DNA from: Coriobacteriia bacterium
GTDB taxonomy: Bacteria; Actinomycetota; Coriobacteriia; Anaerosomatales; PALSA-660
Assembly: GCA_030651905.1 (NCBI GenBank)
Contig: JAUSBS010000018.1
Location: 1-35,184, forward strand
Reading direction: 5' to 3'
DNA: 35,184 bases
A program made the position numbers and the translations under genes. Below the pieces are notes generated by a model, which was not told where the DNA came from, searched no databases, and saw nothing but the letters and a program-made list of their open reading frames with translations. How positions within the stretch are numbered: the stretch's first letter is position 1; each line of letters opens with the position of its first letter. Shown piece after piece: positions 12,087-14,395 of this stretch.

Positions 12087-12458
12087 ATGGCCGGCGAGAC
12101 GATACTGATCGCCGACGACAACCGCCAGATCCGCATGCTGGTGACCGCCAGCCTGCGCACGGGCGGCTATGTGCTCATCGAGGCCGAGAACGGCGAGATC
12201 GCTCTCGAGAAGGCGATCGCGAACCACCCCGACCTCGTGTTGCTGGACGTCACGATGCCGAAGCTCGACGGCTTCGAGGTGCTGCACTTCCTGCACAAGC
12301 GACCGGACACGGCCGACGTGAAGGTCGTCATGCTGACGACGGCGTCGACGAAGGAAGACATCCAGACGGGGTACTCCGAGGGTGCGGTCGACTACCTCGT
12401 CAAACCGTTCGAGCCCGCACGTCTGCGTGAGGCCGTCGACAAGGCCCTTCACGGCTGA
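12087..12458 (+). CDS. single-domain response regulator (CheY-like receiver)
   Basis: A 123-residue stand-alone receiver domain with no output domain. The acidic pair is D10-D11, the phosphoacceptor is D54 in LVLLDVTMP, the conserved Ser/Thr lies in MLTTAS, and the conserved lysine is in YLVKPFEP. All residues needed for phosphorylation are present. The start ATG 12087 has a perfect AAGGAGG six nt upstream. It is divergent from nadE and convergent with the cobalamin-binding protein gene, with only 13 bp between the two stops. No histidine kinase is in the window. As a CheY/Spo0F-type protein it must act by protein-protein contact; its partner is unknown. The opposing sensor-like gene is a possible functional neighbour, which is inference. 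Confidence 0.95.
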   Translation: MAGETILIADDNRQIRMLVTASLRTGGYVLIEAENGEIALEKAIANHPDLVLLDVTMPKLDGFEVLHFLHKRPDTADVKVVMLTTASTKEDIQTGYSEGAVDYLVKPFEPARLREAVDKALHG

Positions 12459-12471
12459 ACCGGCGTGCTCC

Positions 12472-13542
12472 TCACGCACCGCAGAGCGTTCGCGCTGTGC
12501 GAACCGCCCCGGTCGCCTCGGGAGCCCATCCGTCCGCGTCGAGCGCGCGCCACAGACTCGGGACCGTGTTGAACGGCCGCCCGCCCACGATGACCTTGGC
12601 GCCGCGCCCGGCCTCGGTCCTGCGGACCGCCTCGACGGCCATTCGCAGGTCGGTCAGGTGGGGTGCCATCGTGGCGGACAACGCGACGACGTCGGGTTTG
12701 AACTCCTCGACCGCCGAGACGATCGCACCGAGAGGCGTGTTGGCTCCCAGATAGTGCGTGTCCCAGCCGCCGAGATCGAAGTGGTCCGACACCATCCGGA
12801 CACCGATCTCGTGCAGTTCGGGACCGACCGCGGCGATCACGACGCTCCTGCCGATCCGTTCGGTGCGACCGATGCGCGGCGACAGCGCCCCGAGAACACT
12901 CTGCGTCACGCTCGTCGCGACATGCTCCTGGCCCACGGTCACGCGGCTGGTGAGCCATAGTCTTCCTACCTCGGCTTGCACGGGCGCGATCACCTGGAGG
13001 TAGAGATCCTGAATCGACAGCCCGTCGTCCAACGCGTGCAGGGCCATTTGCGTGGCGCTGGTCCGGTCTCCGGCGAGCGCGGCGTCAAGATAGCTGACGG
13101 CGAGCGCACCGGTGACGCCGTCAGCGATGACGAACGGAGGTGGCGTGAACCCACGATCGGGCATGGCCGATACGGCGTCACGCACGACGACGTCGACGAC
13201 ATCGGCCTGACCTGGCTCGAGAACGGTCCGGCAGCCCTGAGCGACGAACTCCAGGCTCTCGATCAGCCATTCCTCGGGCAGACCGAGTCCTCCGAAGAGG
13301 ACGGCGGCCCATCCCACGTAGTCGTCGAACAGGCTCGGCTCGCCCGTCGCCAGCGCCTGCACCAGGAAATCGAGGTGGTGTCGAACGTCCCGCTCGACCG
13401 CCGCCACGGCGACGACATCCAACTGCCGCATGAGATCCGGCCGGATCGTCCGATAGCGCTCGAGGACACCTGCGGTCACGCCGTCCGTCAGCGGAGCGAG
13501 CGCCTCGCCCGCTTCGCGCAGGGCAGCCTGGTCGGGAGCCAT
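12472..13542 (-). CDS. cobalamin-binding protein with CarH-type photoreceptor motifs, no DNA-binding domain
   Basis: A 356-residue protein in three parts. Residues 1 to about 125 are a helical domain, vaguely like the N-terminal helical bundles of Rsb-type co-antagonists. Residues about 137-222 are a four-helix B12 cap. Residues about 228-345 are a Rossmann-like B12-binding domain. The cap contains W196-x9-E206-H207, and the Rossmann part contains E242-L-H244-E-I-G247 (ExHxxG). These two motifs mark the adenosylcobalamin light-sensing module of CarH/LitR, with H244 as predicted lower cobalt ligand. Ordinary methyltransferase modules have DxHxxG and lack the W-x9-EH motif. No MerR-type helix-turn-helix and no methyltransferase domain is present. 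ATG 13542 (MAPDQ) follows AGGGACG, 13 nt after the stop of a membrane coiled-coil gene. B12 binding is well supported; light sensing is inference. Confidence 0.86.
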   Translation of the reverse strand: MAPDQAALREAGEALAPLTDGVTAGVLERYRTIRPDLMRQLDVVAVAAVERDVRHHLDFLVQALATGEPSLFDDYVGWAAVLFGGLGLPEEWLIESLEFVAQGCRTVLEPGQADVVDVVVRDAVSAMPDRGFTPPPFVIADGVTGALAVSYLDAALAGDRTSATQMALHALDDGLSIQDLYLQVIAPVQAEVGRLWLTSRVTVGQEHVATSVTQSVLGALSPRIGRTERIGRSVVIAAVGPELHEIGVRMVSDHFDLGGWDTHYLGANTPLGAIVSAVEEFKPDVVALSATMAPHLTDLRMAVEAVRRTEAGRGAKVIVGGRPFNTVPSLWRALDADGWAPEATGAVRTARTLCGA

Positions 13543-13555
13543 GATGGGCGCGTCC

Positions 13556-14395
13556 CTACTTGACCTCGAACGTCCACGCCGAGACACCGGGCATCTCGAA
13601 CTTGCTCGTGCCGATGTAGCCGGTGGCGTAGTAGCGATAGACGCCCTTCTTGGCGGGGGCCTTGACCGAACGCTTCCAGGTCGTGATGCCGCCTGTGGTG
13701 GTCGATTTGGTGAGGCTGTAGGTCGCGCTGTAGGAGGCGACCAGACCGGTGCCGATGATCTTCATCTGCACCTTGGTGGCACTACCCTGGACCTTGGCCT
13801 GAAGTGCGAGCGTGTGGCTCGCCTCGACGGATGTCGGGCTGACCGTACGCTCCGTGATGGTGAGGAGCGTGGTGGACTTGGCCGCGGTCAGGGCCGCGGT
13901 CGCGGAGGCGAGGTCGGACGTGAGCTGGGTGTTCTGGGCGGCGAGCGCCGCGATCGAACCCTCGGCAGACGCGAGCTGCGTCTGTGCCTGGGCCAGCTGG
14001 TCGGCGGTCGAAGTCATGCTCTGCTCGGCTGCGGTAAGGCGCGTCTCGAGCTTGCGGATGTCCGCGAGCAGCGTGGTGCGCTGCCACACGAGAACGCCGC
14101 CACCGATCGCAAGGCCGATGACCAGCGCCAGTGCAAGGAAGCCCCAGAACGCTCCCCGGGATATGCGCATACCGTCCATTGAATGGCTCCCTTGTCTGCG
14201 GACCGGTGCGGCTCCGCGCCGCCCGGCTGACGTGCCCCGCTCTTCGATCGGCTCGTCCAGCGCGAAGTCGGGTTCAGGCTCCGGCGCGGCCGCAGCGGCC
14301 GCGGGAGACCCCGACCAATCGACGTCCGAGAGAACGCCGTCGTCGACTCCGGCTCTGTCTTCGCCCGATGCGGGCGGATACCAGTCAGACACCAT
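13556..14395 (-). CDS. membrane-anchored coiled-coil protein with C-terminal beta domain
   Basis: A 279-residue protein I cannot assign to a named family. Residues 1-80 are hydrophilic, acidic and Ala/Pro-rich, with a small Gly/Arg patch. A single transmembrane helix follows at about 81-104 (GAFWGFLALALVIGLAIGGG). A coiled coil runs to about 185, with Q/A/T/L-rich heptads such as LAQAQTQLASAEGSIAAL. The C-terminal 90 residues are beta-rich with a Tyr-rich pattern (SYSATYSL...GVYRYYATGYIG) and look like an immunoglobulin-type extracellular domain. Topology is probably N-in, C-out. The start ATG 14395 has a modest GGAAAGG; the frame is open 60 codons upstream, but that part is Arg-rich shadow sequence. 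It is first in a two-gene unit with the cobalamin-binding protein, so an envelope partner is possible. Confidence 0.78.
   Translation of the reverse strand: MVSDWYPPASGEDRAGVDDGVLSDVDWSGSPAAAAAAPEPEPDFALDEPIEERGTSAGRRGAAPVRRQGSHSMDGMRISRGAFWGFLALALVIGLAIGGGVLVWQRTTLLADIRKLETRLTAAEQSMTSTADQLAQAQTQLASAEGSIAALAAQNTQLTSDLASATAALTAAKSTTLLTITERTVSPTSVEASHTLALQAKVQGSATKVQMKIIGTGLVASYSATYSLTKSTTTGGITTWKRSVKAPAKKGVYRYYATGYIGTSKFEMPGVSAWTFEVK

Follow-up and report, generated by a model that had tools for sequence, protein, structure and literature searches.

A predicted stand-alone photocobilin with its globin domain first and its B12 domain last in a Coriobacteriia bacterium

What does a protein perceive, and to whom does it report, if it carries the B12 module of the CarH/LitR photoreceptors but no DNA-binding domain? 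This question is raised by a gene in a 35,184-nucleotide stretch of DNA (the window) from a Coriobacteriia bacterium. The gene lies on the minus strand at 12472..13542 (ATG at 13542, stop at 12472, stop codon included) and encodes a protein of 356 amino acids. Immediately upstream, after a gap of 13 bp, it is preceded by the gene for a coiled-coil protein (13556..14344, minus strand), with which it is possibly co-transcribed. On its other side, a single-domain CheY-like response regulator (12087..12458, plus strand; Pfam Response_reg, E 1.4e-28) is encoded in convergent orientation, and 13 bp separate the two stop codons. Scanning the window with Rfam and for tRNAs gave no hits. Here, we establish the domains, motifs, predicted fold and phylogenetic class of the protein together with the gene linkage in its relatives, and we assign a probability of about 0.78 to the reading that it is a stand-alone light sensor of the photocobilin type in which a globin precedes the B12 domain.

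The Pfam search proposed in the preliminary description matched both B12 families. B12-binding_2 covers residues 151-220 (E 5.1e-13; 12883..13092, minus strand), a four-helix cap with G193-R-L-W196 and E206-H207 as predicted adenosyl pocket, which is further supported by conservation and a motif test. B12-binding covers residues 233-346 (E 5.6e-21; 12505..12846, minus strand), a conserved Rossmann domain with the putative lower axial ligand H244 (E242-L-H244-E-I-G247) and a G266xxxP270 motif. Translation of the reading frame placed W196, E206, H207, E242, H244 and G247 at the positions described before. Among 81 homologues, G193, W196, E206, H207, E242 and G247 are invariant (81/81), and H244 is present in 80/81. 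Both motifs had been said to mark CarH/LitR proteins. This holds for W-x9-EH, which we found in 7/7 CarH-like proteins and 4/4 photoreceptor references compared to 0/14 usable corrinoid/MetH sequences, but not for [DE]xHxxG (here ExHxxG), which also occurs in corrinoid proteins and is not diagnostic.

In a maximum-likelihood tree of 53 B12 modules (the mis-framed row L165 was left out), a split with 100/100 support has globin-B12 proteins, photocobilins, CtMerR, CarH and a group of stand-alone CarH-like modules on one side and MetH together with the corrinoid methyltransferase proteins on the other. This agrees with the earlier statement that the module is not of the methyltransferase type, and the placement among corrinoid methyltransferase proteins that had been named as counter-evidence was therefore not obtained. 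Within the photoreceptor side, where CarH and CtMerR sit on long branches, the tree gives no firm branching order. Judged by motif and phylogeny, the B12 module is of the CarH type. The AlphaFold2 (AF2) model of the whole protein (pLDDT 95, pTM 0.90) points in the same direction, with the B12 part matching CtMerR, SasPcob and CarH in Foldseek. Nine relatives from the same order share 34-44% identity with the 356-aa protein (E 1.6e-84 to 3.3e-37); eight of these alignments span most of the protein, and that of L018 is confined to residues 49-290. The host genome contains a gene for a cobalamin adenosyltransferase. The host also encodes a second, short stand-alone CarH-like B12 protein (G000:C113:489-971, L007) with W-x9-EH and ExHDLG and without HTH or globin, and such short proteins occur in many genomes of the order (loci L020-L036).

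The N-terminal part had been described as a helical domain of about 125 residues. Helicity was confirmed by AF2 (about 130 residues, all helical), but the nature of the domain had been missed: residues 1-135 (13138..13542, minus strand) are predicted to form a phycobiliprotein-like globin (photoglobin) domain, a fold known from the light-harvesting proteins of cyanobacteria. Pfam itself returned only a sub-threshold Phycobilisome match (E 0.021) in this region. By sequence, the nearest solved structures are SasPcob (8J2W/8J2X, E 3.1e-26), AbDPcob (8J2Y) and CtMerR, and a weak second alignment in this search placed the N-terminus of the query on the C-terminal globin of SasPcob. A family profile built from 45 full-length homologues hit both parts of SasPcob (B12 i-E 2.5e-35, globin i-E 4.3e-5) with the domains in swapped order, and it also found allophycocyanin/phycocyanin at about 3e-6. 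With a globin-only profile, phycobiliproteins (E 3e-8) and the SasPcob globin (E 5e-7) were recovered. Because the swapped globin was left unaligned by Foldseek of the whole model, the globin was modelled alone (pLDDT 94); the top 50 Foldseek matches were all phycobiliproteins or the phycobiliprotein-derived, biliverdin-binding smURFP, at a TM of about 0.7-0.8 by query length.

In the profile alignment, D52 and W78 correspond to Asp270 and Trp296, the residues with which SasPcob contacts biliverdin (numbering corrected for a chain-index offset of 6, for which Trp61 and Glu71-His72 served as anchors). Both are invariant in 81/81 homologues, and D52 also coincides with the Asp of CxRD, a motif of phycobiliproteins. 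Residue 49, the counterpart of the bilin-attachment Cys of phycobiliproteins, is Val in the window protein, Cys in 20/81 and Ser in 41/81 homologues. The Cys-bearing proteins include that of the culturable, kinase-coupled Azospirillum brasilense. The N-terminal domain is hence best described as a phycobiliprotein-like globin, by homology and model, that has kept the bilin-contact residues. No MerR-type HTH as in CarH/LitR is present, which bears out the claim that a DNA-binding domain is missing. Since a CarH-type B12 module is combined with a phycobiliprotein-like globin that keeps its bilin contacts, the protein belongs with the photocobilins and is not a CarH that lost its HTH. By sequence and predicted fold, it is a domain-swapped photocobilin, globin first and B12 last.

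Photocobilins, described in 2024, bind both B12 and biliverdin and work by contact with other proteins; the same paper already lists AdoCbl domains at either terminus, the C-terminal ones in predicted structures (PMC10979010). The closest likeness is to the stand-alone SasPcob of Saccharothrix syringae (8J2W, 8J2X), which also combines the two domains without an output domain and shares W-x9-EH, the lower-ligand His, Asp270 and Trp296. In contrast to the window protein, the order in SasPcob is B12 then globin, the B12 parts are only about 32% identical, and, as a further point of difference, no heme oxygenase was detected in the window host. In AbDPcob of an Acidimicrobiaceae bacterium (8J2Y), the photocobilin is tied to a signalling enzyme. 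Here the output is fused and Asp270 is replaced by His with weak biliverdin binding (PMC10979010), whereas the window protein keeps the Asp and its relatives have a separate GGDEF or kinase gene adjacent. CarH/LitR and CtMerR (5C8D, 8JBS) have the AdoCbl photoreceptor module in common with the window protein, with an N-terminal MerR DNA-binding domain instead of the globin. Photoglobins and the biliverdin-binding BBAG-2 globins are likewise non-heme bilin-type globins associated with B12-binding domains, and BBAG-2 binds biliverdin in E. coli (PMC10151467). In the BBAG-2 examples, the globin has a gene of its own next to genes for a B12-binding protein and a bilin reductase, whereas the window protein is a single polypeptide and 51/56 carrier genomes tested gave no heme oxygenase. 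Fused globin-B12 proteins are already known as photoglobins and photocobilins, and the window protein is a variant arrangement.

A scan of GTDB genomes returned 376 relatives, the best 80 of which were used for conservation and neighbourhood counts. Most of these 80 are stand-alone proteins of about 350-360 aa. They come from Actinomycetota, Chloroflexota, Bacteroidota, desulfobacterial and delta-type MAGs, Spirochaetota, Cloacimonadota, Poribacteria, Ignavibacteriota, Balneolota, Acidobacteriota, Bacillota, Pseudomonadota (Azospirillum, Thiomargarita), Lokiarchaeota, Bathyarchaeota and others; several are MAGs, in which binning errors are possible at single loci. The preliminary description had called a light sensor unexpected in an anaerobe. 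A search of the host genome found no heme-copper oxidase, which is consistent with an anaerobe, but close homologues are spread across many anaerobe lineages including Lokiarchaeota. With a heme-copper oxidase in 5/18 carrier genomes tested, carriers are not uniformly anaerobic.

At 74/80 of these loci we found a reading frame with a conserved N-terminal sensor domain that has no Pfam name (alignment A2). The domain starts less than 400 bp downstream on the same strand at 72/80 loci, and stop and start often overlap by 4 bases. The 74 partner frames consist of 60 histidine kinases, nine GGDEF proteins and five that are cut off or unclassified, and among the loci without the partner domain at least two stop at a contig end. 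In the partner kinases and cyclases, the N-terminus is made up of this domain, with about 120 aa, and a coiled coil (e.g., L077:8933-9427). The receiver in the relatives is most likely this adjacent sensor-domain kinase or diguanylate cyclase.

Bilin photoreceptors are generally considered to require heme oxygenase and hence oxygen. Canonical heme oxygenase was found in only 5/56 carrier genomes and in 0/10 carriers from the window's order; incomplete MAGs may account for individual absences, but hardly for the majority of the 51. What puzzles most about the family is that the bilin contacts are invariant without heme oxygenase: the pigment is made by another enzyme or taken up, or a different ligand occupies the pocket.

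About 20/80 loci have a candidate heme-opening enzyme close upstream, assigned by homology to one of three unrelated families. Directly upstream of the photocobilin gene, an ABM-fold protein (top family HmuQ/IsdG, E 2e-8) is encoded at nine loci with a strong and at two with a weak match. A divergent gene of the heme-oxygenase family (PF01126 above cut-off) is found at four loci. A ChuW/HutW-like radical SAM gene is present at five Bacteroidales loci, upstream on the same strand at four (L056, L058, L067, L106) and divergent, 0.8 kb away, in L072; two members scanned scored 292 and 241 bits with ChuW/HutW (below the equivalog cut-off of 400) versus 167 and 142 with HemW. A ChuW/HutW-like neighbour is also on record for the kinase-coupled photocobilin of Perlabentimonas gracilis. 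The heme-oxygenase and HutW sets are each lineage-restricted, and the ABM set extends across several phyla. A Cys at the attachment site is commoner beside ABM genes (7/11 vs 13/69, Fisher p 0.004 with relatedness ignored), and this Cys-bearing subset differs from photocobilins as described, which lack the phycobiliprotein attachment Cys (PMC10979010). In L055, L062, L082, L100, L107, L109, L114, L116 and L117, the ABM/HmuQ-like gene codes for about 100 aa and is separated from the photocobilin gene downstream of it by 11-35 bp. In L062, L100 and L117, a cluster of 102-161 aa reading frames located upstream of and opposite to the photocobilin gene apparently consists of antisense artefacts; the profile search identified ABM genes there instead. 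A divergent Rieske oxygenase neighbour in the spirochaete loci L048 and L087 was not counted as a bilin-forming enzyme, being classified as Rieske plus VanA_C by Pfam and as sterol monooxygenase by NCBIfam.

These observations allow a tentative proposal, which we consider possible but by no means probable: globin-first photocobilins might be widespread kinase-coupled light sensors of largely anaerobic bacteria and archaea whose antenna is a linear tetrapyrrole made without heme oxygenase, by the ChuW/HutW-like radical SAM enzyme in Bacteroidales (an anaerobilin-type bilin) and by IsdG/HmuQ-like enzymes elsewhere, and possibly attached to Cys in a quarter of the members. If true, the globin-first photocobilin would be a bilin photoreceptor working without oxygen. 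A bilin-globin/B12 family that is intact without heme oxygenase and linked to candidates for oxygen-independent heme opening would make oxygen-free light sensing and early bilin-globin history testable, and the recurrent kinase or cyclase neighbour also offers a ready input-output pair for green/red optogenetics. In the literature covered we found no account of the near-universal partner domain, the three heme-opening families including an anaerobic one, the KaiBC linkage detailed below, the Cys subset or carriage by Lokiarchaeota, with the 2022 photoglobin paper and the 2024 supplements lying outside this coverage and possibly describing part of it.

For the window protein, we infer AdoCbl binding, photochemistry, a bilin and an output by homology to SasPcob and AbDPcob (PMC10979010). 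In the dark, AdoCbl would be bound base-off, with H244 on its lower side and its adenosyl group resting against W196 and E206-H207. The dark-state dimer interface would run through W196/E206-H207; the counterpart of E206-H207 lies at the interface in photocobilin structures. Green light would break the Co-C bond, and red light would do so if a bilin is bound: a linear tetrapyrrole, if held in the globin pocket by D52 and W78, would serve as red-light antenna for B12. In photocobilins, the green-light response is reported to appear in the spectrum as a loss at about 570 nm and a gain at about 356/500 nm. The adenosine pocket would then rearrange, followed by a change of the contact surface. As there is no DNA-binding or catalytic domain, the signal must leave by protein contact, and the earlier proposal of a route through protein contacts is probably right; photocobilins act in this way (PMC10979010), and light activates the diguanylate cyclase attached to one of them (PMC10979010).

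The same architecture could instead report B12 status, with AdoCbl occupancy or redox state passed to a kinase or cyclase, a merely structural globin and a light sensitivity that is incidental in anaerobic, often dark habitats. AdoCbl binding alone lowers the diguanylate cyclase activity of AbDPcob (PMC10979010), many of the 80 homologues belong to anaerobe lineages, and searches of the host genome found neither a photolyase nor any of the bilin-forming families tested. Nevertheless, we regard this explanation as unlikely given that the biliverdin contacts D52 and W78 are unchanged throughout the homologues, that a candidate heme-opening enzyme lies close upstream in about a quarter of the 80 loci and that the adenosyl pocket known from light-responsive proteins is retained in full. 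If the protein instead served a methyltransferase system, as a corrinoid protein to which a helical domain was added, this would explain why MtgC, a model for corrinoid proteins, gives the top raw NCBIfam score (65.5 bits, well short of its cut-off of 370). We consider this reading extremely improbable in view of the split in the tree, the lack of W-x9-EH in the corrinoid/MetH set and the signalling kinase as recurrent neighbour in the relatives.

The photocobilin-type reading leaves the question of how this particular copy is connected. The host genome is 96.5% complete in 130 contigs, and its absences rest on genome searches. The A2 partner domain was found neither in the window nor elsewhere in the host genome, and searches of this genome detected no heme oxygenase, no ABM/IsdG-type enzyme and no radical SAM protein at the ChuW/HutW level, with matches only at the HemN/HemW level (139.8 bits). 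This leaves both the receiver and the bilin unexplained, although uptake or an enzyme of another kind might provide the latter, and nothing apart from the protein itself indicates that this host needs to sense light. With no partner found, either one of the other kinases acts in trans (24 HisKA matches in the host genome), or the gene is a detached single-gene acquisition. In a genome of the same family (G002), homologues of the response regulator (64% identity) and the coiled-coil protein lie next to each other, separated by about 60 bp that contain no photocobilin gene, and this empty site reflects either a gain in the window lineage or a loss in G002. The empty site, the lack of a full-length copy in the other sampled genome of the genus and the missing partner domain would fit an idle or decaying orphan, acquired without its kinase, kept for now and functionless here. 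We think this rather doubtful, since the frame is intact with all functional residues kept, the GC3 of 0.82 is that of a coding gene of the host genome, and the gene also occurs in three genomes of the order (G035, G036, G052) in which the partner domain is found nowhere. The neighbouring response regulator (12087-12458) could also take up the signal as part of a local two-gene sensory unit, for which the 13-bp distance in convergent orientation and its receiver domain could be cited. The convergent orientation precludes co-transcription, however, and the regulator failed as a conserved partner: in carrier relatives, the sequences most similar to it map to other parts of the genome, as in G042 (672 kb vs 722 kb for the photocobilin gene), and G002 has the regulator without a photocobilin beside it. 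As the adjacency is not conserved, membership of the regulator in the system is doubtful, and signalling through it is very improbable.

The coiled-coil protein (13556-14344) has a conserved C-terminal domain, and its homologue adjoins the response regulator gene in G002 too. Among the relatives, seven loci (L041, L050, L065, L072, L079, L086 and L099) have KaiB and KaiC genes no more than about 5.5 kb from the photocobilin-kinase pair, a linkage that suggests that light feeds into a Kai-type timer in organisms other than cyanobacteria.
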